The notes beneath the pieces are model-generated. The model searched no databases. It was not told the DNA's origin and saw only the letters and a list, made by a program, of their open reading frames with translations. A stretch of DNA of 64,000 nt from an uncultured Fibrobacter sp. (GTDB lineage Bacteria > Fibrobacterota > Fibrobacteria > Fibrobacterales > Fibrobacteraceae). Every line of letters begins with the position of its first letter. Position 1 is the stretch's first letter. The stretch lies in contig NZ_CAMVDO010000008.1 in NCBI RefSeq assembly GCF_947166265.1, positions 62,001 to 126,000 on the forward strand, read 5' to 3'. Position numbers and translations under genes: made by a program. This document shows, piece by piece, positions 16,438-32,761 of the stretch.

Positions 16438-19400
16438 CTATTCCACGTTCACGCGGAGTGTACGGCGGTTAACCCGCACAACGTAACTGCCCGGTCGAGA
16501 GAGTTCGATTCGACGAGTTCCATTCGTCACGACATCCTGTGCCACAAGGACCCCCTGAACATCGTAGACCATCACCTTCGAACCGATTTTCGCTCCCGAG
16601 ATTTCAAGGGCACGGCCACTCGTTGCCACGGTAAAGCCCACAGACCTAGATTCCGGTAAGCCGGTAGCGGCATCCACGAACGTTGCCGTATAAACACCGT
16701 CCTTCAGCTGCCACTTATCGAAGGTATAGGTCACCTGACCCTTCTTGTAGTTTTCAGGAATGACTCCCGCCAAGGCGCGGTCAATCGTCTTTTCGGCAGA
16801 GCCAGAATAAATCACGACGATTTCACCCGTTTCTCCACGAGCATCATCGTAGCGGATTGTCTTCTGGAACAGCGGGTACACATCCTTGTCGCCGTAATCG
16901 GTGGCAAGCATCGCCTTGTAGCGCTCACCCAGGCCATTCTTCTTCTGGTACCATCCCTTGAATTCCCAAGTGGAATCACCCTTGATGTAACCCGACGGAA
17001 GCATTGTCACCTTCCCATAGGTATAGCCGTTGAACTCAGCCGTTAAATCTCCTTCTGCAGGCAGGTGGAAGATTACGTCAAACACTCGGGCAATCCTTGC
17101 GAAAGTCGGTTCGTAGACATCTGTCGAGTCATTCCGCACAAACTTTTCGAATTCGTAGGTATATGTGCTATCCGCATCCTTCACCGGCAACACACGAATG
17201 GAATCGCCACCTTGCTTCGGAAGGGCTTCCTCGATTTTCGATTCAATAATCGAATCCGTATCGGTTATCCGGATCACCACGTAGACCGTATCCGTTTCCT
17301 TGTCACCATACTTCACTATAATCTTTACAGATTTTGCAACACCTTCAAATTCTGGAACATGCCAGCCTTCGGGTTGTTTTTCCTTCCAATGAAGGACGAA
17401 CGTAGAATCTTCGGTTTCAGCCTTCGACGGAACAACCTTTCCGGACTGTTCCAGGAATTCGCCAATCTTTTGATCCAGTTTTTCCTGCGTATTCACATCG
17501 ACAACAAAGAACATTGTCGATATCGTATCCGCAGCACCATCGCCATACTTAATGACATATTCACGGCTTCTTTCGGCAGCGGTAAATCCCGGTTCGTAGT
17601 ACGAAGTCTTTTCGTTCTTGTGCCAGGTACTATTAAACGTGAACGTCTGTTCTTCCGTCGACTTCTTGGTCGGAGTCGGAATAGCCGGAACATGCGACTT
17701 GATAGCGGCATTGATTTTCTGGTTCACCTTGGCATCGTTATCGGTCACATGAATTTCCACATGAATCGTATCGGTAGCCTTTTTACCATACTTCACCACA
17801 ATGGTATCTTTCTTGACAATGCCCACAATGACAGGTTCATAGCGAGTAGAATCCTCTGCACTCTGTTTCCAGCCATCAAGAACGTAGGTGGAATCGTCAT
17901 CTTCAGTAACCTTGGGCGGCAGCGGGATTTTCGGCTTATGCTTTGCAAGCGTATCGGAAATGACCTTGCTTATGTCATCCTCGGAATCCAGCGTTTTCAC
18001 CTTCACCCAAAGGGTATCACTTGGACCACCGCCATAGGCCACCACGATATCCTTGATTTTTGCAACCGGAGTAAATTCAGGCACATAATGCTTGTCGGAA
18101 TCCTTTTTCCAGTTCGAGAAAACGTAGCTGGAATCCTTGTGCGGATTCGTCTTTTCCGGCTGGAGAGGCGGATCGAAGCTTGCCATGGTCGAATCAATCT
18201 TTCTTGCGATTTCTTCTTCGCTATCCGTCACCTTAATCACCACGTCGACCGATTTGCCCTTTGCGTAGGCAACGACAACCGTATCATCCTTGACTTCCGA
18301 CGAGAATATAGGATTGTAACAAGTCTTGCAAGCCGGATCTTTCTCCCATTCCTCGAAAGTATAGACGGAATCCTGATGCGGGTCCGTAGGCACAGGAACA
18401 ATTTTCGGTTCCTTACTTGCCAGGGTCGAATCGATTTTCCTTGTACGTTCATCTTCGTCATCGGTCCTATCAACGATTACCTTGACGGAATCTTCGGGGC
18501 CCACCACAGCGACAATCGTATCTTTCTTGACGGTCATGATAAAGTCCGCACGATAGACCTCATCATTTTCCGGATCCATTACCCAAGTTCTAAACTCATA
18601 GTCATAATTCGCATTGCGAGGATACGGCTCAGGAGTCACACCTTCTACCTCCGCTTGCGCCTGAATCTTTTCTATCACCAGGTTTTCATCGTCGGTCACA
18701 AGGACATCGACCCAGAAATATTTGGTCTTACTTGCGTAAATAACCTTGAGTTCCTTCTCCTTCACTTCGCTCTTAAACAGAGGCACGTAAGCACCGTCCG
18801 TATCCTTTTCCCACTTCTGTGCGAACGTATACGTAGAATCCCAAGTTTCGGTCTTAGTCGGAAGCGGAATTCTCGGATTGTGGTTATTCAAACCATTGAC
18901 AATCGCCTTGTTCAAAAGCGAATCGTTACGCGTAACCGGCACATTGACCTTCAAATGAATCGTATCGTTTGGAGTTTCACCATATCTCACAACAATTTCA
19001 GTCTGCTTGACTAAGGATTCGAACTCAGGTTCATACCAATCCTTGTCTTCATTGTAATGCCACTTGTTACGGTAAGTATTGAAGGCATACGTAGAATCTT
19101 CGCTGTCGCCCCTGCGCGGCAAAACTTCACCAAGCTCATCGCTCAGCGAATCAAGCGAATTTTTCACCTGCTTTCGAAGACATAGCGGAGACTTTTCCAG
19201 ATCTTCTGTTTCGGGGCAATTGACAAGGACGACCTGAACGGTATCCGTTTCGCCATCACCATACTTGGCAGCAACGACAGGATACCCCGTCAACTTACCA
19301 TTGACAGTCTTGACATTCTCATACGATGCCGTGACATCTTCGTCATTAGAATTTTTAATCACATACGAGAGAATCTCATTTTCAGAAGAGCCTCTTCCCG

Positions 19401-22400
19401 TCACAGAGCCTTCAATCACGACCTGAATGTAGTCGCCCTCCGCAAGGACGTCCGGAGTGAAGGTAAATCCCGGATCCGTAAGGACAGCGTCCTTACCGTT
19501 GCCCTGGGCAACGGAATTCGCCGTGATCGTCAGAGTTTTCTTAATCGGATTCACGACAAGGCCACCGTCAATCACGTTGAACTTGACCTGTTCAAAATCC
19601 GTCAAGCCTTTGTCCTCAAACTGAGTCACATCAAGTCCCATCGGATACGTTCCCGCCGACGTCGCCTCCACAACGCTATTTCCGTTGAACACAAAGTCCG
19701 TCAGCGAATAGCCCTCATGGTCTATAGAAACATCGTAACCCGACACACTGTGTTTGACACCATCATAGTCAACAGTCTGTTGGTGACCTCTAATGGTTAC
19801 CGTAACAATCTTTGCATCGGCAACTTCGATATAGCCGTCACTTACATCAAACTCTACATCAAAATTACCATCTACATTTTCAAGTTTCGAAGCAAGATTC
19901 ATAAATTTTTTGCCTACAGTTTCTAGGCTCACCGAGGCCGACATACCTTTTTTCAGCTTTACATTCGACACATCGTAAAGAGGATCGGATGCACTCACAA
20001 CCGTATAGCCTTCAGACACATACACGTGGGAACCCTCTTCGACCTTGACACTCGTTTTCTTACCTTCAACCACAACCGTGACCGGCCGCTTTTCAATTAT
20101 CAGCTTTGCAGTTGTTTTTGCTGTATCCGTATAATTCGGGTTAGTCGCCCTTACATTGATAGTGTAGGTTCCAGCATCCGTCCGAGTGAGGTCGCCCAAA
20201 TTCTTAGTCCAATTTTTTTCATCATCCTTGACATCATCCTTGAACTGATACTCACAATTTGTTGAACCAGTCTTTGCTTCCGGTGTTTCACATTCGTGCG
20301 TATTCGCATGGGATTCTCCATCGTACTCAACGGTTTCATTTTTAAGTGTAACCGTAAACGACTTTGCCGGTGTAATAGTCAACTTGCCCGGAGTGGTCGT
20401 TATCGCGTAATCCATCGTAACGTCATTTTCTTCAGCATCCTTAATAACGGCAGATTCTGCCGGAGTAATCACGCCATCGTACTCACCCACATCGGTGCCA
20501 GCGGCACTATAAACGACATCATCATGCGTATGACCAGCAACCAAGCCCTTGCCCGAAACAGTCATATCAGTCAAGGCAATTTCTTCGCCCGTATAAGTCA
20601 AAGTTTGCGTTTTACCCGTAAACGAAAGTGGTCTCGGATTGATCTTGATGATTCCATAATTCGGTTCAATCTTGAAGGAATCCGTTACAATTACGCCATC
20701 ACTGTTCTTGATGACCAACTGGTCACAAGTTGCTTCGACCTCGCCTTCAGCCACGTGAGTTACAGAAACAGTAGATGCAGCCTCAGCTGTATAATCAACA
20801 CCTTTTGGGAAAGTTACAGTAATTTCCGACGGATCCACAACAAGCGGAGTGCCATCGAAAACCTTAGATTTATTCTTAGTCGTCACCGTGACCGTAATCT
20901 GTTCCCACATGGCATAGAATGCAGTATCGCCATAAGGCGCATTCGGTTTGAAGCTAGTTACCGTCTTGGGACAATTCTCTGTTACATCCGTAGTGCACCA
21001 GCCCTTAAATATATAGCCATCCTTGGTTGGTGTTTTGAACTTAATTTCTGCAGAATCAAGATTATAAGATAAAACCGGCGTTTCAGAGAATTTTCCGCCA
21101 TTCAAAACATAATCAATTGTATAGTCTTGGAGCTTCCAATGCGGATAAAGATCCAGGTTAGCCTTGTCCGAATACACAGCATCAAAGTCATAATCTATAT
21201 CGCCATTCAATGTTTTAGACCAACCATCCTGTACACGACCAATGGCCGTAAAGGTTTCGTTTCGCAAATTTATAGGCGTATCATAATCTTTTGCATCTTT
21301 AACAATCGCTTCTTTAGCAAATTCATCTGGGGTATAAGTGATTATATACGTAGTCCTTGCCCAATTTGCATATAACGTTAGTTTTTCGGCCATATCATTG
21401 ATATGTGAAATCGGAGTATCAAAGGTTTCGTCAAGGAACCAGCCTTCAAAGTCATAGCCTTCTCTAGACGGGCGCAAAAGACTCAAATCTATAGTTGTAT
21501 CAACATTATAGGTTTTCGGATAGTCGGCAGGATTATAAGTAGCGTCCTTCAAATTTTCATAAAGAATAGCATAGATATTTCGAGTCCACTTCGCATAAAC
21601 TTTGCTATTCTTTGTGATTTGCACCTTGTCAAATTCAAATTTCTTCGTACAAGCAAGGTCTTCATACCATCCACCAAAAGTATATCCTTTTTCTACGAGT
21701 TCACCGGGGTCAGTAGCCAATTCATTATCAAGAATATGCTGTGCCTCAGGTGCAACACCATGGCCCTGCACATCAAACGAAACGGTGAAAGTCGGAGCTA
21801 TTGTCCACGACGCAGAAAAAGATGACTCCTTTGTTGCATTACCGATTGTCTGTACCGGATTTCCTTGAGAATCCTTCCAACCGGCAAAGTAATACTTAAT
21901 TCCATTTTCCATATACTCCGTAGGAAGGTCAAAGTCAATCGTAATAGGTTCACCTTCTTCTATCCAGATTTCTTTTTGCTGCGTAGCCGGTTCGCCAGGG
22001 AAAAATCCCGGCTTGGAACTGAACGTTATTTTATAAGCATCTTTCCAATAGGCATAAACCGTGGTTGGCTTATATACTTTGCCAAGATTTCCCGGTTCTC
22101 CATTTTTACTTAAAGACCAATTTTTCCCAAACACATTTGAATCTGATGCGGGAATAGGATCATCGATTCCCTGTGAAGTTATTGGATCTTCTAGATACAA
22201 TTCCTTACTTCTTGTTGTAGCTCCGCCAGAAAACGAGCCTTCATTAGCATCAAAAGTAATCACATAAAGAGTCCTTCCCTTTGAATCCTTTGTCACACCT
22301 TGGTTTGTTATGTTTGTGTGTTTACTCCAAATGTTAGTCTTTGCACCCGTACAACTACCATTGTTCCATGTTCCCTTATTGAGCAAACAGACATACTCTT

Positions 22401-23607
22401 CTTGGTTCACGACCGAATTGCCGACACCGGTATTATCCCCTTCAACAGCGCCCCCTTTTTCAACAGAACCAACGCCACTAGCTGCAGCATCACTATCATA
22501 ATAACCTTCGGTAATGTTAGCTTTACTACTCACCAAACCGATAAGGCCTCCCGTGGCACCACTAGTGCCCGTATTTTGCAGCAGGCTTCCGTCGTATACG
22601 CTCGATTCAAACTTAACCGTTCCAGATTTGACGCGTCCCACAAGACCACCGACAAAAGCTCTATCACCGGCAACCTTAATTGTAGCGACACTCAAGGTAT
22701 TCTTGATTGTTCCGCCAAAAGCTGTACCCACTATACCACCAACAGCCTGCCCCTTTTTATAGGTATCTACAGAACCCGACACATAACAGCCCTCAATCGT
22801 ACCAGAAGGCATCCAGCCTACGATAGCGCCTGTACTCACAAAGCTGTTGTCACTGATTAAATAGTCTTGCACCTGACCATGAGCCTGAATATCTACGTTA
22901 TCCAAAACAACATTTTTTACCGTCCCCGAAATCGTTCCAAACATGCCGACATTTTGTCCATAAATATAAGCCTTACTTTCAAGGTATTCGCTATGAACAG
23001 AAAGATTAGAAATGGTGACCCCGTTACCGTCAAAAATACCCGCGTACCTTATGGCACCCGTACCTGCAGCAATCGGGATAAACGGTTTTCCTCCCATGTC
23101 CAGGTAGGGAGCCGACACAAAGGCATTAAAAGCAACCCCAACCTCTTTACCAGAATTCGATTTCAAAATCGCTAAAGTCACCCTAATGGCATCTTCTTTG
23201 GACACAGAAAAAATGTTTTTCGCAATGGCTTGGGCCCGAGTTATTTTTGCAACACTGTCTTCAATGGCCGAGATTTCCTCCATACCGTCAATATACAGGT
23301 TCGCAATGGTCTTGCTCATTTCAACGGAAACAGTATCTTTGTAAGTGTTTAGCCATGTCCGCAAATCTTTCATTAAGAAAGTTTCCGCCTGTTGCATAGC
23401 CGCATACGTATTCACCGTATCCGAAAACCACGCCAAGTTTTTTTCATTCTCAATGACAAAATAGTGCTTGCCCTTAATTACCGTATCTTTTTCCACTTTT
23501 TGGGTGGAGGTGCCATCCCAGGCAGCCATAGCAGAACCAATCCCCAGCGCACACACGAGCAGGGATACCAAGCGGACGAACGAAAACTTCTGAATAGCCT
23601 TATCCAT
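16438..23607 (-). CDS. giant secreted repeat protein (GLUG, InlB_B, MBG and a novel ~80-aa repeat)
   Basis: A 2389-residue extracellular protein. The ATG at 23607 has AAAGGA upstream; a signal peptide ends at SAMAAW (about residue 30). In order: a helical stretch to about 170; GLUG-like beta-helix units (about 185-360; IFDGNGVTISNL, VGGIVG, VGGLVGR); InlB/Listeria-Bacteroides beta-grasp repeats (about 450-900; GYTFGGWYEDLACT, VYAKW); MBG-like Ig-type modules (about 905-1445; KVFDGTPL, ITPAKSFTVTL, DAGTYTINV); then about nine units of 78-85 residues with the pattern YG-x-TDTI-x-V-x-TD ... IPxP ... DSTYTFxxW ... YxPxF (about 1446-2300). It ends with a C-terminal domain of about 55 residues (VMVYDVQGVLVAQ ... 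SYVVRVNRR) shared with other secreted proteins here, likely a secretion sorting signal. No catalytic domain seen; probably a stalk-like adhesin. Confidence 0.85.
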   Translation of the reverse strand: MDKAIQKFSFVRLVSLLVCALGIGSAMAAWDGTSTQKVEKDTVIKGKHYFVIENEKNLAWFSDTVNTYAAMQQAETFLMKDLRTWLNTYKDTVSVEMSKTIANLYIDGMEEISAIEDSVAKITRAQAIAKNIFSVSKEDAIRVTLAILKSNSGKEVGVAFNAFVSAPYLDMGGKPFIPIAAGTGAIRYAGIFDGNGVTISNLSVHSEYLESKAYIYGQNVGMFGTISGTVKNVVLDNVDIQAHGQVQDYLISDNSFVSTGAIVGWMPSGTIEGCYVSGSVDTYKKGQAVGGIVGTAFGGTIKNTLSVATIKVAGDRAFVGGLVGRVKSGTVKFESSVYDGSLLQNTGTSGATGGLIGLVSSKANITEGYYDSDAAASGVGSVEKGGAVEGDNTGVGNSVVNQEEYVCLLNKGTWNNGSCTGAKTNIWSKHTNITNQGVTKDSKGRTLYVITFDANEGSFSGGATTRSKELYLEDPITSQGIDDPIPASDSNVFGKNWSLSKNGEPGNLGKVYKPTTVYAYWKDAYKITFSSKPGFFPGEPATQQKEIWIEEGEPITIDFDLPTEYMENGIKYYFAGWKDSQGNPVQTIGNATKESSFSASWTIAPTFTVSFDVQGHGVAPEAQHILDNELATDPGELVEKGYTFGGWYEDLACTKKFEFDKVQITKNSKVYAKWTRNIYAILYENLKDATYNPADYPKTYNVDTTIDLSLLRPSREGYDFEGWFLDETFDTPISHINDMAEKLTLYANWARTTYIITYTPDEFAKEAIVKDAKDYDTPINLRNETFTAIGRVQDGWSKTLNGDIDYDFDAVYSDKANLDLYPHWKLQDYTIDYVLNGGKFSETPVLSYNLDSAEIKFKTPTKDGYIFKGWCTTDVTENCPKTVTSFKPNAPYGDTAFYAMWEQITVTVTTKNKSKVFDGTPLVVDPSEITVTFPKGVDYTAEAASTVSVTHVAEGEVEATCDQLVIKNSDGVIVTDSFKIEPNYGIIKINPRPLSFTGKTQTLTYTGEEIALTDMTVSGKGLVAGHTHDDVVYSAAGTDVGEYDGVITPAESAVIKDAEENDVTMDYAITTTPGKLTITPAKSFTVTLKNETVEYDGESHANTHECETPEAKTGSTNCEYQFKDDVKDDEKNWTKNLGDLTRTDAGTYTINVRATNPNYTDTAKTTAKLIIEKRPVTVVVEGKKTSVKVEEGSHVYVSEGYTVVSASDPLYDVSNVKLKKGMSASVSLETVGKKFMNLASKLENVDGNFDVEFDVSDGYIEVADAKIVTVTIRGHQQTVDYDGVKHSVSGYDVSIDHEGYSLTDFVFNGNSVVEATSAGTYPMGLDVTQFEDKGLTDFEQVKFNVIDGGLVVNPIKKTLTITANSVAQGNGKDAVLTDPGFTFTPDVLAEGDYIQVVIEGSVTGRGSSENEILSYVIKNSNDEDVTASYENVKTVNGKLTGYPVVAAKYGDGETDTVQVVLVNCPETEDLEKSPLCLRKQVKNSLDSLSDELGEVLPRRGDSEDSTYAFNTYRNKWHYNEDKDWYEPEFESLVKQTEIVVRYGETPNDTIHLKVNVPVTRNDSLLNKAIVNGLNNHNPRIPLPTKTETWDSTYTFAQKWEKDTDGAYVPLFKSEVKEKELKVIYASKTKYFWVDVLVTDDENLVIEKIQAQAEVEGVTPEPYPRNANYDYEFRTWVMDPENDEVYRADFIMTVKKDTIVAVVGPEDSVKVIVDRTDDEDERTRKIDSTLASKEPKIVPVPTDPHQDSVYTFEEWEKDPACKTCYNPIFSSEVKDDTVVVAYAKGKSVDVVIKVTDSEEEIARKIDSTMASFDPPLQPEKTNPHKDSSYVFSNWKKDSDKHYVPEFTPVAKIKDIVVAYGGGPSDTLWVKVKTLDSEDDISKVISDTLAKHKPKIPLPPKVTEDDDSTYVLDGWKQSAEDSTRYEPVIVGIVKKDTIVVKYGKKATDTIHVEIHVTDNDAKVNQKINAAIKSHVPAIPTPTKKSTEEQTFTFNSTWHKNEKTSYYEPGFTAAERSREYVIKYGDGAADTISTMFFVVDVNTQEKLDQKIGEFLEQSGKVVPSKAETEDSTFVLHWKEKQPEGWHVPEFEGVAKSVKIIVKYGDKETDTVYVVIRITDTDSIIESKIEEALPKQGGDSIRVLPVKDADSTYTYEFEKFVRNDSTDVYEPTFARIARVFDVIFHLPAEGDLTAEFNGYTYGKVTMLPSGYIKGDSTWEFKGWYQKKNGLGERYKAMLATDYGDKDVYPLFQKTIRYDDARGETGEIVVIYSGSAEKTIDRALAGVIPENYKKGQVTYTFDKWQLKDGVYTATFVDAATGLPESRSVGFTVATSGRALEISGAKIGSKVMVYDVQGVLVAQDVVTNGTRRIELSRPGSYVVRVNRRTLRVNVE

Positions 23608-23827
23608 AAGCAATCCTTTGCCGAGAAATCAATTTCTGGACGGCAAAAAACCCAGAAACCGCCTCGGCTTCTTTTTCTCTCTTAAAAATAATTAAAAAAT
23701 TTTTACATGGGTAAGTTTTTTTTATATATTTGGTAAAAAAGGCCTTCACAAAGAAAATTCGTCCATTTCGTTATTTTTTTCTTATTTTACATTATAGAAT
23801 CCGCTTTATGGGAGTCCACGCAAGAAT
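23608..23827. promoter_or_regulatory. divergent promoter region
   Basis: A 220-nt AT-rich gap between the leftward giant protein gene and the rightward barrel gene. For the rightward gene TACATTATAGAATCC at about 23786-23800 looks like a -10 region. No inverted repeat stands out. Confidence 0.35.
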
Positions 23828-25764: not shown

Positions 25765-25800
25765 AAAGGTCCCGGAGCTTTAGCTCCGGGACCTTTCTTT
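25765..25800 (+). terminator. strong bidirectional-looking terminator
   Basis: A 15-bp perfect stem, AAAGGTCCCGGAGCT / AGCTCCGGGACCTTT, with a TT loop (25765-25796), followed by CTTTT. It ends the barrel-lipoprotein operon and, with A-rich sequence on its left, could also serve the convergent helicase gene whose stop is at 25800. Confidence 0.9.
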
Positions 25801-27323
25801 TACTGTTGATTTTTTGCGGCTTCGCGCATACGCTTGCGGGCGCGCGAACCGGGGCGATTCATGCCGATAGTTCGGCGACCTTCCTGATTCTGCGGAATAC
25901 CGCCGTTCGGCTTTTCGCGATTTTGCGGAGCCTGGCTCTGTTGAATCTGCGGCTTTTGATGCTTCTGCTGATTCTGCGGTTTCTGCTTCGAATGCGGGGC
26001 ATTCTGCGGATTGCCCGTGTTATGGCCCTCGCGGTTAGATTCGCCTCGACGGTCGCCGCCACGGTTTTCGTGGCGATTCAGCTCACCACGATTCGGCTTG
26101 TTGCCGTGATGGTTGCCTTTGGGGAATCCACGGCCGCGTGCATTGCGCATTTCGCTTTCGGGAGTTTCCTTTTGCGGGGGCGGGAGCTTTTCGAAAATCG
26201 TCTTGTCGCCTTCGGGAATACTGATGCGAGTCAATTTCTCGATGGCACGAAGGTCCTGTTCTTCGTCGGGAGCGCAGAACGAAATCGCGATACCGTCCTT
26301 CCCTGCGCGGGCCGTACGTCCAATACGGTGCACGAACGTTTCCGGGACATCGGGCAGGTCGTAGTTGAAAACATGCGACACATCGTCCACGTCGATGCCA
26401 CGAGCGGCGATATCAGTCGCCACTAGCACACGAATCTGTTCGCACTTGAAGTTGCCCAGGGCCTCCTGCCTACGGTTCTGGCTCTTGTTGCCGTGAATCG
26501 CGGCGCACTTGATGCCCGCCTTTTCAAGCACTCGCGTGATTTTATCCGCACCGTGCTTGGTTCGGCTAAAGACTAGCACCTTTTTCATTTCGGGGTGCGC
26601 AAGCAAGAGTTCCTTGAGGAGAGCGCCCTTGCGGCGCTTGTCGATGCGGTAAAGCTCCTGGTGAATGCGCTCGATGGGAGTGCTCTGCGGCGCCACTTCC
26701 ACCCTCACTGGGTTCGGTCGCAGAATCGTCGCGGCAAGTTTCGTGATGTCATCGGGCATGGTCGCGCTGAAGAACAGGTTCTGCCTGTTCTGCGGGAGTA
26801 ACGCCACCACCTTGCGAATGTCGTGAATGAACCCCATGTCGAGCATTCGGTCGGCCTCGTCGAGCACGAAAAATTCCAGCGCCTTTAACGACACCGCCTT
26901 CTGGTTTATGAGGTCTAGCAAGCGTCCAGGGGTTGCCACCAGCACATCGACGCCTCGAATCAGATTACGCTTTTGGCTGACATCGCTCACGCCGCCAAAA
27001 ATGCAGGCCGTCGAAATCGCCGTAAACTGGGCGTACTGCTTAAAGCAATCTTCCACCTGAATCGCAAGTTCTCGCGTCGGCAAAAGAATCAGCGCACGGC
27101 AAGTCTTAGGCGCACGGAACTTTCCCGAATCCAGCAACAACTGCAAAATCGGAAGCGCAAACGCGGCGGTCTTTCCCGTTCCCGTCTGGGCAATTCCTAG
27201 AAGATCTTTGCCTTCCAACAGACTCGGAATCGATTTTTCCTGAATCGGAGTAGGTTGTTCATAGCCAACAGCACGCACAGCGCGTTGCAACGGATTCGCT
27301 AAGGGAAGTTCTGAAAAAAGCAT
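25800..27323 (-). CDS. DEAD-box RNA helicase (RhlE-like)
   Basis: A 507-residue ATP-dependent RNA helicase. All motifs are present in order: Q motif (GYEQPTPIQ), I (AQTGTGKT), Ia (PTRELA), Ib (TPGR), II (DEAD), III (SAT), IV (VLVFSRTKHGA), V (ARGIDV) and VI (HRIGRTAR). The core ends near residue 375 and is followed by about 130 residues of Arg/Gly/Asn/Gln/Pro-rich disordered tail (HHGNKPNRGELNRHENRGGDRR, then Gln-Asn-Pro-rich), typical of RhlE subfamily RNA-binding tails. Family roles are ribosome assembly and RNA decay or cold adaptation. A promoter-like TATTTT lies 10 nt before the ATG and there is no Shine-Dalgarno site. Confidence 0.95.
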   Translation of the reverse strand: MLFSELPLANPLQRAVRAVGYEQPTPIQEKSIPSLLEGKDLLGIAQTGTGKTAAFALPILQLLLDSGKFRAPKTCRALILLPTRELAIQVEDCFKQYAQFTAISTACIFGGVSDVSQKRNLIRGVDVLVATPGRLLDLINQKAVSLKALEFFVLDEADRMLDMGFIHDIRKVVALLPQNRQNLFFSATMPDDITKLAATILRPNPVRVEVAPQSTPIERIHQELYRIDKRRKGALLKELLLAHPEMKKVLVFSRTKHGADKITRVLEKAGIKCAAIHGNKSQNRRQEALGNFKCEQIRVLVATDIAARGIDVDDVSHVFNYDLPDVPETFVHRIGRTARAGKDGIAISFCAPDEEQDLRAIEKLTRISIPEGDKTIFEKLPPPQKETPESEMRNARGRGFPKGNHHGNKPNRGELNRHENRGGDRRGESNREGHNTGNPQNAPHSKQKPQNQQKHQKPQIQQSQAPQNREKPNGGIPQNQEGRRTIGMNRPGSRARKRMREAAKNQQ

Positions 27324-27356: not shown

Positions 27357-29030
27357 TTATCTAGTCCCGATAACATACTTGACGCAATCAGGTTTCGGAG
27401 CCTCGATCCTAAAGCGCAGGACTCGCAGCAGAGTCTCGGCACCATTACGGGTGTATGTCAGATACTGGTAAGTCGATTCGGGGATAATCACGCGGCCCCC
27501 TTCCTTAACCAGCTTCATCGCCTTAAAAATCCGGTCGAGGCAATCAGCTTCCTTCAATTGAAGCAGTTCTTCTGTCAGGCAAATGACTACCTGGTCAAAC
27601 CGGAAATAAATCGAATCCAGCTCCGAAGTCTTTGCAACCATCACATTCTCAATCGGATAGGGATTTTCTGTGACAACCAGGGTACTCCCCATGCAGCGCG
27701 TTTCCGCAAGAGTCTTTTCGATATCCTGCGGCATTCCCTCTTTCTTGATAAACCACGGTCTAGATGCACCGTCATTGTACAAAAGCGAAAAATACTTTTG
27801 TTCCAACTCACACAGCAGCCTAAGGTCATCCATCACCACATTTTCGTCATCGTGAACAAGGTAGATTAACCCACCAGCCGTTTCCAGGTCAACGGTCTTA
27901 TTGAATATTCGAGTTTCGTTCATCGGAGCAAGCGCTATTTTATACGTACTTCTCAAGTTTTCCGCAATTTTCCAAAGCGAAAGACTCTCGGACTCGATAT
28001 TGCGGGGAATAACCATCATTTTCATAGCCCCTTTTCGACGCAATCGATACGGTCTTTTCGCCTCTTCCGCAAACTTTTCGGGCTGCAAATACGCATCCAA
28101 AATAGAATCTGTCTCGTGCTGCCCATAAATCAAGTCCATATATTCCGCAGGCTGGCTGCATCCCATCGGGCGACAATTCACTTCAATAAGCACGGGGCCC
28201 TTTTCGTCAACCATGTACTCCCCATGAACCATCCCATACTGGATGCCAATGGCTTTTACGGTTTCAAAGGCGTACTCCACAATTTCGGCTTGTCCCGCAG
28301 ACAGTTCCGAAATACTTTCGATAAACCTGTAAATATATCCACCTTCCGATGTCCTTATCTTGTCATAGACAAGCATCGAGGTCAAGCGAGGCTTTCCGGC
28401 CGAAACCGCCGTATTCACAATGTACTCCGTACCAACGATTCTTTCCTGAACAAGGACCTCATGCATCGCATTTCCGTAAAAATCAGTACTTTGCAAATTC
28501 GTCCTTACGTGTTCAAGAACTTCTTCTCTGCTGTCACACAAGGCAAGCCCCTGACTTCCTGCACCTTGTAGCGGTTTTACGACACCCCTTTCCAGATGAT
28601 TTTCGCTTAGGAACTGTTCCGCTTCTTCAACATTCGATACGACTCGCCCTCGAATGTACCTAACACCACCCCTTTTCAGGGCTTCGTGCATGGCATCTTT
28701 CCTTGTCATGGAATCAAGAATCGAAGTCGGATTTCCCGGAAGTCCCAGAGATTCCGATAGCCTGTTCGCCATAACCACGCCAGATTCCGTTCCCGGTATG
28801 ATGATGACTGGATTATAGGATTTCACCAGTTCAACCGTTTCTTCGTAGGTATCACATTCCCGGATAACTTCAAAAGGATACTTTATCTTTTTGTACGTTT
28901 CTTCACGATCGACAGCCATTATTCCCGTCGCCTTACATTCTAGGACAACGGCCCTGTAGCCTCGACAGACGATATCCTCGATGAAGTTGTATCCTGTCGA
29001 TAACGCTTCTGCAACGATTATATTTCTCAT
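27357..29030 (-). CDS. ATP-grasp ligase-like protein with C-terminal partial methyltransferase-like domain
   Basis: A 557-residue protein. Residues about 1-110 are the pre-ATP-grasp domain (IIVAEALSTGYNF, IIPGTESGVVMANRL); about 115-330 is an ATP-grasp fold with VVKPLQGAGSQGL (ATP Lys and Gly loop), VQERIVGTEYIV and the metal site HGEYMVDEKG / LIEVNCRPMG. Such enzymes join a carboxylate to an amine through an acyl phosphate. After a linker, about 430-557 resembles the second half of a SAM methyltransferase fold (FDQVVICLTEELLQL, VKEGGRVIIPE) without a visible SAM-binding glycine motif. It lies 11 nt after a MATE transporter gene and is certainly cotranscribed, suggesting synthesis and export of a small peptide-like compound. 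Substrate unknown. Confidence 0.82.
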   Translation of the reverse strand: MRNIIVAEALSTGYNFIEDIVCRGYRAVVLECKATGIMAVDREETYKKIKYPFEVIRECDTYEETVELVKSYNPVIIIPGTESGVVMANRLSESLGLPGNPTSILDSMTRKDAMHEALKRGGVRYIRGRVVSNVEEAEQFLSENHLERGVVKPLQGAGSQGLALCDSREEVLEHVRTNLQSTDFYGNAMHEVLVQERIVGTEYIVNTAVSAGKPRLTSMLVYDKIRTSEGGYIYRFIESISELSAGQAEIVEYAFETVKAIGIQYGMVHGEYMVDEKGPVLIEVNCRPMGCSQPAEYMDLIYGQHETDSILDAYLQPEKFAEEAKRPYRLRRKGAMKMMVIPRNIESESLSLWKIAENLRSTYKIALAPMNETRIFNKTVDLETAGGLIYLVHDDENVVMDDLRLLCELEQKYFSLLYNDGASRPWFIKKEGMPQDIEKTLAETRCMGSTLVVTENPYPIENVMVAKTSELDSIYFRFDQVVICLTEELLQLKEADCLDRIFKAMKLVKEGGRVIIPESTYQYLTYTRNGAETLLRVLRFRIEAPKPDCVKYVIGTR

Positions 29031-29041
29031 AATTGTATCCC

Positions 29042-30805
29042 CTACATAGCTAATTTAAACCTTGTCTGATTCACACCCAACAGGTAATCATATTTCACTT
29101 CTGACGCAATTTTCTTGATCATCCAGATGTTTCCGAATTTTTCTTGATCAGCGCTAAAATGATCAAACGGTAGCCCGATACTTCGAGTATAGACCACAAT
29201 CGACTCATTCTCTATCGTAATCCTCATATCCATATTAACGTACTTATCTTTAGAATTGCAAGCCGTATAGACAAAGATTTCTTCGGTAGCCACCGCCAAG
29301 AGGTTTGCCTTTTGAGAGTCTATTCCGTACTCGTCACAGAAATCAAGAACCATTCTAGTCACCACTCCGGCCTTTTCCATATTCCCATGTATTGAGATAT
29401 CCAGAACATCGTTCTTAAACTTTTCACTCGGAACAAACAGGAACGGTGACATCTTATGAGAAAGCCTCCTTTGCGCTACAAAGTTATAGGCGAATATACC
29501 GACAACGATCAGTAACGAGCATAACGGATACGCAAGCCACAGGCCATCTACGCCCCAACATCTAGACAACAGATACACTAGAGGGACAATGCCCACAAAG
29601 CCATCGAAAGCACTTATAATAAAGGCATATTTTTTGCGTCCTAAAGCCATGTGATTGTATTGCGCCACCTGCACAAAGCCCCTGATAACAAACATCACCG
29701 AGAATATCCTCACAGCCTTAATCGTCATGGAATACGCATCAGCAGATTCGATATTGTACATAGAGGTAATAATCGAGGGGAAGAACAAGAACAAAAGCGT
29801 AAAGATCATATTTACAGCAAGTTGCGATTTTAGAGCCCGCTTACAAAGAAACCGAATTCCCACATAATCTTTCTGAGCCCTCATCACGGCAATCAAGGGG
29901 ATAATCGATATTGCAATACCGGCCATAAAAATCGACACCAACGAAATCGTCTGAATGCACCCCGCAAAGGCGGTAATGCCCGCAATACCCGCAAGGCTAC
30001 CCGCCATAAAGTTGCAATACGAGAACTTGACTGCAAAACCCAGCTGGGTCATCGCCGACGACATTCCTCCAGCCACAATCTGCGACAACATTCGAACCGT
30101 TTCTTTTGAAAATAGCGCAAAAGAAATCCTGCATTTTCCAAGCAGCACCCAAGCAATCAGGAATGCAAGCCCCACCGCGTAACCGACAAACGTCGCCCAT
30201 GCGGCCCCCGTTATACCCATATCGAAAAAATGGATAAAGATGTAGTCAAAAATCAGGTTCACCACATTCGCCAAAACATTGATAAACGTAGCGAGTTTAG
30301 GGTTCCCTGTCGCAGGCAAAAAATTGATTAGCACCTGGATAAGAATTACAAGAGAGGCACTTATCGCCAGAACCCTTGTATAGGGAATAAACATCGACAA
30401 CAGAGATTCATCCGTACAAAAGATTCTGGAAATTTCTTCATAAAAAAGGAGTCCTACAAGCGTTATTACTGCCGCAACCGCTAGCGAAGCAAAAAGCGTG
30501 AACGAAAAAATCTCGCCAGCCTTTTTCCTTTCCATTTTACCCAAATAGTTGGCATACAGCACCGAGCCCCCGATACCAAACATCGTATAGACAATGGCAT
30601 ACACCAACATAATCGGCATACCCAAATTGACTACACTCATGGCGGGGCTTCCCAAAAGTTGCGCCACGATGATGGAATCCGCAAATTCGTTTAACGAAAG
30701 GGCTATAGTACTTACGACAGACGGAATCAAGAATCGAAAAAACTGTCTCTTGACAATTTCGTCATTACGTAAAAGCGCACACGGAGGTTCAATAAAACGG
30801 CTCAT
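29042..30805 (-). CDS. MATE-family transporter fused to a C-terminal anti-sigma-factor-like ATPase domain
   Basis: A 587-residue membrane protein. Residues about 20-440 form twelve hydrophobic helices of a MATE/MOP-superfamily exporter (RFLIPSVVSTIALSLNEFADSIIVAQLLG; NFLPATGNPKLATFINVLANVVNLIFDYIFIHFFDMGITGAAWAT). Residues about 455-587 form a soluble domain like RsbW/SpoIIAB-type histidine-kinase ATPases (VTRMVLDFCDEYGIDSQKANLLAVATEEI), but the N-box Asn after the Glu is Tyr (EIFVY) and the DxGxG box is absent, so it may bind without hydrolysing. The ATG at 30805 with GGGA just upstream is preferred to a TTG at 30826. It is the first gene of a two-gene unit with the ATP-grasp protein. Two minus-strand terminators upstream isolate it from nfnB. 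Confidence 0.82.
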   Translation of the reverse strand: MSRFIEPPCALLRNDEIVKRQFFRFLIPSVVSTIALSLNEFADSIIVAQLLGSPAMSVVNLGMPIMLVYAIVYTMFGIGGSVLYANYLGKMERKKAGEIFSFTLFASLAVAAVITLVGLLFYEEISRIFCTDESLLSMFIPYTRVLAISASLVILIQVLINFLPATGNPKLATFINVLANVVNLIFDYIFIHFFDMGITGAAWATFVGYAVGLAFLIAWVLLGKCRISFALFSKETVRMLSQIVAGGMSSAMTQLGFAVKFSYCNFMAGSLAGIAGITAFAGCIQTISLVSIFMAGIAISIIPLIAVMRAQKDYVGIRFLCKRALKSQLAVNMIFTLLFLFFPSIITSMYNIESADAYSMTIKAVRIFSVMFVIRGFVQVAQYNHMALGRKKYAFIISAFDGFVGIVPLVYLLSRCWGVDGLWLAYPLCSLLIVVGIFAYNFVAQRRLSHKMSPFLFVPSEKFKNDVLDISIHGNMEKAGVVTRMVLDFCDEYGIDSQKANLLAVATEEIFVYTACNSKDKYVNMDMRITIENESIVVYTRSIGLPFDHFSADQEKFGNIWMIKKIASEVKYDYLLGVNQTRFKLAM

Positions 30806-30905
30806 AAATTTTCCCAAGTACAACAAAGCGCAGAATTACATCCGCGAAAAAATCCTTCTTATCGTTCATTTTAAATATACCATTTTTGCAGAAGGAAATA
30901 AAGAC

Positions 30906-31261: not shown

Positions 31262-32761
31262 TTATTTCTTCAAATATTCGTTGATGCCTGCAGCAGCACG
31301 ACGACCTTCACCCATGGCGAGGATCACGGTTGCGGCACCCAGCACGATGTCGCCACCGGCGTAGACCTTTTCCATAAAGGTCTTGTTGGCGGTTGCATCT
31401 TCGAGAAGGATGTGACCCTTCTTGTCGACGGAGAGTTCCGGCGTGGTGTTGCTGATAAGCGGGTTAGAACCGTTACCGATAGCAACGAGCACGGTGTCGC
31501 ATTCGATTTCGAAGCTTGCGCCTTCGACCTTGACCGGACGCGGACGGCCCTTTTCATCGGGTTCGCCGAGTTCGTACTTGTCGACGAGCATGCCGCGCAC
31601 GTGGCCGGCTTCGTCGCCAAGAATCTTGGCCGGGTTCTGCAGAACGCAGAATTCGACACCCTCTTCCTGAGCATGGAGAACTTCTTCCTTACGGGCCGGG
31701 AGTTCGTTCATGCTGCGGCGGTAAATGATGCGGACCTTTTCGGCACCGAGACGGAGAGCCATACGGGCAGCGTCCATAGCGACGTTACCACCACCGAGAA
31801 CGACCACGTTCTTGCCGGGCCACATCGGAGTATCGGCATGTTCCTTGTCGTAGGCGCGCATGAGGTTAGCGCGGGTCAGGTATTCGTTAGCGGCGAACAC
31901 ACCGACCAGGTTTTCACCTTCGATGTTCATAAAGAGCGGGAGGCCTGCACCGGTACCGACGAACACGGCATCGAAGCCATCCTTTTCAATCAAGTCCTTG
32001 AGCTTGCGAGTACGGCCGATGACAAAATTTGTCTCGAACTTCACGCCCATGGCAGCAAGGGATTCAATTTCGTTGTCCACGATCTTCTTCGGAAGACGGA
32101 ATTCAGGAATACCGTAGCGGACCACACCACCGAGCTTGTGGAAAGCTTCGAAGATGGTCACGTCGTGGCCTTCGCGGCGCACGTCAGCAGCGACAACCAG
32201 GCCGGCAGGACCGGAACCAATCACAGCAACCTTCTTGCCAGTAGCAGGCTTCACGGCCGGCACAGAAGCGCCACCGTTGTTGCGTTCATAGTCAGCAGCA
32301 AAGCGTTCCAAGCGACCGATAGCCACAGCCTGGTTCACGTCCTTGTGCATCTTGCCCATGGTGCAGTTCATCTGGCACTGGCGTTCCTGCGGGCAAACGC
32401 GGCCGCAGATTGCCGGGAGCAAGCTCGTTTCCTTAATCTTCGCAATAGCAGCCTTGAAGTCACCTTCGGCAATCTTTGCGATGAAGGCCGGAATGTCGAT
32501 GTGCACCGGGCAGCTTTCGACGCAGGACGGCTTCTTACAGGCGAGGCAGCGGTTGGCTTCCACAATAGCCTGGGCTTCGGTGTAACCCTGAGCCACTTCT
32601 TCCATCACGCGGGCGCGGTAGCTGGGTTCGAGCTGCGGCATCGGCTGGGCCGGAATGGCAGTCTTGTCCTTGGGCTTGAGCGGCTTCGGAAGGGCGTTAA
32701 TCTTTTCAAGTTCCACCTTGGCGGCGGCGTCCAACTGTTCACGAGTCAAATGTTCAGACAT
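31262..32761 (-). CDS. NfnB / GltA-like glutamate-synthase-small-chain family flavoprotein
   Basis: A 499-residue iron-sulfur flavoprotein. The N-terminus carries the two [4Fe-4S] Cys sets typical of glutamate synthase small chain: CLACKKPSCVESCPVHIDIP and CGRVCPQERQCQMNC. Two Rossmann dinucleotide sites follow: GSGPAGLVVA for FAD and GGGNVAMDAAR for NAD(P)H, and the end has YAGGDIVLGAATVILAMGEGR. It is often annotated GltA. However, the adjoining gene, overlapping by one base (TAATG), encodes the matching NfnA subunit, and no large glutamate synthase subunit is nearby, so the pair is more likely the NADH-dependent ferredoxin:NADP oxidoreductase that bifurcates electrons between NAD, NADP and ferredoxin. 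Confidence 0.93.
   Translation of the reverse strand: MSEHLTREQLDAAAKVELEKINALPKPLKPKDKTAIPAQPMPQLEPSYRARVMEEVAQGYTEAQAIVEANRCLACKKPSCVESCPVHIDIPAFIAKIAEGDFKAAIAKIKETSLLPAICGRVCPQERQCQMNCTMGKMHKDVNQAVAIGRLERFAADYERNNGGASVPAVKPATGKKVAVIGSGPAGLVVAADVRREGHDVTIFEAFHKLGGVVRYGIPEFRLPKKIVDNEIESLAAMGVKFETNFVIGRTRKLKDLIEKDGFDAVFVGTGAGLPLFMNIEGENLVGVFAANEYLTRANLMRAYDKEHADTPMWPGKNVVVLGGGNVAMDAARMALRLGAEKVRIIYRRSMNELPARKEEVLHAQEEGVEFCVLQNPAKILGDEAGHVRGMLVDKYELGEPDEKGRPRPVKVEGASFEIECDTVLVAIGNGSNPLISNTTPELSVDKKGHILLEDATANKTFMEKVYAGGDIVLGAATVILAMGEGRRAAAGINEYLKK

Follow-up and report, generated by a model that had tools for sequence, protein, structure and literature searches.

An ATP-grasp ligase paired with a MATE exporter that carries an RsbW-fold pseudokinase tail in Fibrobacter and Clostridia

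The two-gene locus and its products

The stretch of DNA analysed here (the window, 64,000 nucleotides) lies on contig C8 of the 3.77-Mb genome of an uncultured Fibrobacter sp. (G000). At 27357-30805, its minus strand encodes a MATE-family exporter and an ATP-grasp ligase in a two-gene unit flanked by gltD (31262-32761) and a DEAD-box helicase gene (25800-27323). Both open reading frames (ORFs) are intact, and their coordinates and the gap of 11 nt between them are as described in a previous sequence-only reading of this DNA. The MATE gene is transcribed first (30805 to 29042) and the ligase gene second (29030 to 27357); after the MATE stop codon TAG (29042-29044) come first GGGGA and next the ligase ATG at 29030. 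For the MATE start, the ATG at 30805, with GGGA upstream, is preferred over the TTG at 30826 given in the mechanical ORF list. The features of the unit are as follows.

29042-30805, minus strand: MATE-family exporter with a C-terminal RsbW-like tail, 587 residues, first gene of the unit (PF01554, E 1.8e-25, in two stretches)
29465-30805, minus strand: MATE core with 12 transmembrane segments, residues 1-447 (matches solved MATEs, for example 3vvn, E 6e-21)
29042-29464, minus strand: RsbW/SpoIIAB-fold pseudokinase tail, residues 448-587 (AlphaFold2 and Foldseek; hhalign E 1.2e-10)
29252-29284, minus strand: N-box in degenerate form, EEIFVYTACNS, residues 508-518, with Tyr in place of Asn (alignments)
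29162-29188, minus strand: degenerate G1 box TRSIGLPFD, residues 540-548, DxG replaced by RSxG, with R541, S542 and G544 invariant in the clade (alignments)
29038-29042, minus strand: GGGGA resembling a Shine-Dalgarno site for the ligase gene, which overlaps the stop codon of the MATE gene (sequence)
27357-29030, minus strand: ATP-grasp ligase of the L-amino-acid-ligase/DdaF kind with an extra C-terminal domain, 557 residues (Pfam, NCBIfam and PDB profile matches)
28170-28190, minus strand: metal/ATP site LIEVNCR of the ligase, residues 281-287 (E283, N285, C286 and R287 invariant in 13 relatives)
27357-27818, minus strand: incomplete methyltransferase-like C-terminal domain of the ligase, residues 405-557 as modelled (AlphaFold2, pLDDT 82; weak methyltransferase matches)

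In the exporter, 12 hydrophobic segments span residues 30-439 and two MatE repeats were found; the protein scores narrowly under the cut-off of the NCBIfam subfamily TIGR00797 (134 against 147.4 bits). Residues 448-587 were unrecognised by Pfam, and PF13581 (HATPase_c_2) gave no match in the window MATE at E up to 10. The AlphaFold2 model of this tail (pLDDT 80) has its strands and helices in the same order as SpoIIAB, and its top PDB matches were UsfX, SpoIIAB and RsbW (Foldseek, E ~2e-6, TM-score 0.64-0.78). By hhalign, the tail also matched true RsbW-like proteins of the same genome set (97%, E 1.2e-10). The earlier suggestion that the transporter ends in an RsbW-type domain is therefore upheld, the matches pointing to this fold and not to an unrelated one.

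The hhalign alignment further confirmed the loss of the N-box Asn, replaced by Tyr, and of the DxG motif, replaced by RSxG, and it shows the ATP-lid (GxG) stretch to be deleted. Because the EEM and RSxG replacements are common to all 10 aligned members of the ligase-linked MATE clade, the tail is best described as a conserved pseudokinase and not as a decaying copy; E508, E509, D526, R541, S542 and G544 are invariant across two phyla. Related MATEs outside this clade (L162, L166 and L049) have the N-box and DxG intact, and the PF13581 cut-off is reached by a related MATE of G009 and by several MATEs linked to non-ribosomal peptide synthetase (NRPS) genes. The sequence-only reading had proposed an exporter that senses either a nucleotide or a partner protein. 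Nucleotide sensing is now disfavoured, as every ATP-site motif checked has been replaced, whereas partner sensing is favoured by the recurrence of STAS and SpoIIE genes beside such MATEs, as discussed below.

The ATP-grasp fold of the second protein was recognised by Pfam (PF01071, E 1.4e-13; PF13535, E 1.7e-10). Its nearest NCBIfam family is PRK07206/NF005543 (E 1e-71), and the dapdiamide A synthase DdaF (NF041595) also matched (E 7e-35). A profile of 13 relatives matched the solved L-amino-acid ligases 30vh (E 7e-53) and BL00235 (E 4e-16), and BacD as well. Enzymes of the L-amino-acid-ligase kind form dipeptides from unprotected amino acids (PMC6920838). The LIEVNCR metal site, previously read as intact, is so, and because K111, K152, E271, E283, N285 and R287 are invariant across the 13 aligned sequences, the ligase is very probably active.

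The enzyme portion of the ligase comprises residues 1-415, and residues 430-557 form an added domain. Its model (pLDDT 82) bears a weak likeness to the latter half of class I methyltransferases (TM-score ~0.45, E ~3e-4), with the methyltransferase-like domain of anamorsin (4m7r) among the matches; the half-methyltransferase likeness noticed at first sight is thus seen in the model too, though weakly, and the domain may descend from a methyltransferase. The fold lacks its first half, and the glycine-rich motif I that binds S-adenosylmethionine is absent from the sequence, so that an active methyltransferase was rejected. This domain occurs in most members of the family, with G164 having a shortened form and G640 none, and it had no match among the plasmids searched. 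As a separate observation, in L124 (5988-8267) and L125 (6386-8599) an EamA-type transporter is fused with a more distant ATP-grasp ligase in one protein, next to genes resembling a cysteine synthase dependent on pyridoxal phosphate (PLP) and a YggS-type PLP protein; this fusion provides an independent link between ligase and export.

Conservation of the ligase-MATE pair

The full ligase was found in 11 genomes, two from Fibrobacteraceae and nine recovered among Clostridia, and a MATE of one clade (support 100/100) is present in all of them. In 9 of the 11, representing two phyla, the two genes are neighbours (G000, G164, G168, G170, G171, G172, G251, G640 and G689). The MATE gene precedes the ligase gene in the window and in G640, the ligase gene comes first in most of the others, and G164 has both arrangements (ligase-MATE-ligase). 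The conserved adjacency that the sequence-only reading had proposed to survey therefore exists, and a one-off join in the window genome was rejected, as the arrangement recurs elsewhere. In L077 and L081, two ligase genes adjoin one MATE gene, which possibly reflects two successive couplings and a tripeptide-like product. In the two remaining genomes (G169 and G279, both Clostridia), ligase and MATE lie on separate contigs; there the ligase gene directly follows hisE at the end of the histidine operon (L082:8001-9701 and L114:3440-5140), a location that may hint at a histidine-derived substrate.

The ligases of rumen Clostridia are 46-49% identical to that of the window over the full length (pattern scan). 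No close ligase was found in the other genomes of the genus examined, G164 belonging to the same family. With the MATE alone as query, the scan of genome contigs for close relatives gave no matches, and the Clostridial loci were reached via the ligase alignment. Among the 188 genomes of the order to which G172 belongs, the genomes with the ligase (E < 1e-250) and those with a MATE of the clade (E < 1e-240) are the same six, a coincidence with a probability of 2e-11 under random draw, related genomes not being independent. The trees of the two proteins broadly agree: the ligase tree groups the genomes as the MATE tree does, G164 pairing with G640 and the window joining the rest of the Clostridia. 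Two more sets of Clostridial genomes (344 and 391) were searched and show the unit to be rare, and plasmid searches returned distant ligases and plain MATEs only.

Partner-switch neighbours and the proposed mechanism

STAS and SpoIIE genes, which belong to partner-switching systems, recur beside MATEs with such tails. In other Fibrobacter genomes, they and the gene of a switch-tailed MATE are packed into tight operons, in many cases together with NRPS genes. In G014, a STAS gene, a switch-tailed MATE gene and a SpoIIE phosphatase gene follow each other with spacings of 9 and 3 nt, preceded by decarboxylase-like, aminotransferase-like and NRPS genes. In G007, the MATE and STAS genes overlap by 1 nt and the neighbouring gene encodes a Cache-HAMP-SpoIIE-HATPase protein. 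The STAS proteins retain the SSAG serine motif. At the Fibrobacterota loci, a STAS or SpoIIE gene lies within 1.5 kb of 11 of 15 tailed MATEs and of 0 of 32 plain ones (told apart by protein length; Fisher p 8e-8), a contrast whose true weight is less, since the 15 tailed MATEs reduce to about eight gene groups, of which five are positive, and the counts are not independent. For the ligase-MATE pair itself, three rumen Clostridia (G170, G171 and G172) have a STAS gene on one side and on the other a divergent block encoding an RsbW-like kinase (PF13581, E 6e-24), an acyltransferase (PF01757) and a SpoIIE phosphatase (PF07228, E 1e-45).

Peptide synthetase genes form the second recurrent neighbourhood. 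In eight genomes of Clostridia (G176, G179, G196, G200, G219, G220, G270 and G273), NRPS genes adjoin tailed MATEs that belong to a neighbouring subfamily; Pfam confirmed NRPS domains in all four genomes tested (G179, G220, G270 and G273), and in G176 the neighbour is an AMP-binding fragment at a contig edge. Several NRPSs beside switch-tailed MATEs of gut Clostridia (L159-L166) end in a reductase domain, some of them followed by an AMP-binding-like gene. In relatives of Fibrobacter (L050, L051, L052, L053-L056, L058 and L059), NRPS or other adenylating genes are arrayed in an operon-like manner with genes for STAS, a switch-tailed MATE and a SpoIIE protein with seven transmembrane segments, possibly an uncharacterised metabolite system of the genus.

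The interpretation that we put forward, at about even probability, is that the unit comprises a maker of a peptide-like metabolite and a dedicated exporter whose tail is a pseudokinase on which a STAS protein of a partner switch docks and so gates export. Its two parts differ in strength. Synthesis and export of an amide-linked product, already suggested by the sequence-only reading, is well supported by inference, as it fits the ligase family, the coupled occurrence of the two genes and the NRPS neighbours of related MATEs; gating of export by a partner switch is plausible. Under this interpretation, the ATP-grasp enzyme would activate a carboxylate as an acyl phosphate and couple it with an amine, as L-amino-acid ligases do, giving a dipeptide-like amide, while its methyltransferase-like domain might serve as a non-catalytic holder of a substrate or partner. 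The paired MATE would export the product. Its tail, devoid of an ATP site, would most likely bind a STAS anti-sigma-antagonist protein, which would be phosphorylated by a true RsbW-type kinase and dephosphorylated by a membrane SpoIIE phosphatase; the phosphorylation state of the STAS protein would decide whether it docks on the tail, and hence whether export is on or off.

Several observations weigh against this interpretation. The partner-switch flank of the ligase unit represents a single event in three close relatives, and STAS or SpoIIE genes are not beside the pair in the window, G164, G168, G251, G689 or G640. In the window genome, the STAS, SpoIIE and SpoIIE-HATPase genes are on other contigs only (a SpoIIE-HATPase protein and a STAS gene on C2, a second SpoIIE protein on C3), so that partner proteins exist but are encoded in trans only; for the window copy, it is here that the gating model is weakest. 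In addition, the ligase scores below the curated NCBIfam cut-offs (241.5 against 302 bits for PRK07206, 120.6 against 840 bits for DdaF). A related observation in the same genome is a SpoIIE remnant of 97 codons beside ispE (L134:6811-7104, on contig C4). In G014, G001 and G006 this site is occupied by the full STAS-MATE-SpoIIE operon, which has apparently been lost from the window genome.

In a simpler explanation, the tail is an evolutionary remnant or an element for dimerization or stability, with no regulatory partner, and the unit is just a ligase with its exporter. The clade-wide loss of the ATP motifs and the lack of adjacent partner-switch genes at most copies are in its favour, and no other part of the MATE has diverged as far as the tail (23-31% identity to the Clostridial and G164 relatives). 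However, the fold and the six invariant residues of the tail have been kept across two phyla, related tails retain an intact N-box and DxG, and STAS and SpoIIE neighbours recur; we regard a tail without a partner as unlikely.

Signalling might also run in the reverse direction: the MATE could sense flux or substrate and, by sequestering a STAS protein with its tail, alter transcription, or some other output of partner switching, during transport or build-up of the product. The domain evidence is equally compatible with this arrangement, RsbW-fold proteins classically act on transcription, and the SpoIIE and RsbW genes near some loci bear membrane or sensor domains of their own. Nevertheless, in the tight STAS-MATE-SpoIIE operons no sigma-factor target was recognized, although no systematic search was made, and for this reason a pump controlled by the switch is preferred over a pump that reports to it, the latter being in our judgement rather improbable. 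If control of the pump is generalized, we can tentatively speculate, with somewhat less confidence than for the unit itself, that transport is an output of partner switching: a MATE family of gut bacteria for peptide-type metabolites would have an RsbW-fold tail as receiver, SpoIIE and STAS would switch secretion and not transcription, and the ligase-linked clade would be an ATP-independent, pseudokinase version.

Third-position GC content (GC3) is 0.50 for the MATE and ligase genes, compared with 0.64-0.76 in the immediate neighbours and mostly 0.63-0.76 in the flanking genes tested, and the content downstream of gltD (window 31262) differs in nearly every Fibrobacter relative examined, making this region a hot spot of gene turnover; the unit therefore looks like a transferred segment in a variable site. 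Such transfer, together with weak MurJ matches in some relatives, could be taken to mean that the MATE acts on something other than the ligase product, either in protection (drug efflux) or by flipping a lipid-linked intermediate as MOP flippases do, and that the pair is joined by shared transfer only. The strict co-occurrence of the two genes even when unlinked, their two orders and the NRPS genes adjoining related tailed MATEs all argue against this explanation, which we consider very unlikely. Elsewhere in the window (16438-23613, minus strand), a 2391-residue ORF with many repeats and a low GC3 (0.47) apparently encodes a large repetitive surface protein.

Relation to known systems

A ligase with an exporter is a known kind of unit. 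An exporter with its own anti-sigma-kinase-fold tail, a conserved pseudokinase form of that tail and its recurrence with STAS, SpoIIE, NRPS and ligase genes are undescribed in the literature searched: a search for MATEs with SpoIIE, STAS or partner switching gave no relevant paper, most subscription journals lying outside its coverage. The pairing itself is not unique to the window locus. Should partner-switch proteins indeed dock on the tail, small-molecule secretion by gut and rumen bacteria would likewise come under a signalling logic known chiefly from the control of sigma factors. MATE genes of about 570-600 codons offer a handle for locating overlooked metabolite clusters.

In bacilysin clusters, the ligase BacD is paired with the major facilitator superfamily exporter BacE. 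The window unit resembles this pair in combining a dipeptide-forming type of ATP-grasp enzyme, homologous to solved L-amino-acid ligases, with a dedicated exporter; it differs in having a signalling-tailed MATE as exporter and an extra methyltransferase-like domain in the ligase, and in that no other biosynthetic genes are adjacent. DdaF can be aligned across the whole ATP-grasp part, whereas the window ligase falls far under its equivalog cut-off (121 against 840 bits) and has a different gene context. The MATE tail shares the fold of the anti-sigma kinases SpoIIAB, RsbW and UsfX but, unlike these, is fused to a transporter with 12 transmembrane segments and lacks the N-box Asn, DxG and ATP lid. 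That a STAS protein can act on a transporter has one structural precedent, MlaB, which binds the ATPase MlaF of an ATP-binding cassette (ABC) transporter (PMC7367683); this is a lipid transporter in which STAS contacts the ABC ATPase rather than an RsbW-like domain, and no SpoIIE phosphatase is mentioned in the description consulted. Finally, switch-tailed MATEs related to that of the window stand directly beside the reductase-ending NRPS clusters of gut Clostridia, whereas the amide former of the window is a stand-alone ATP-grasp ligase.

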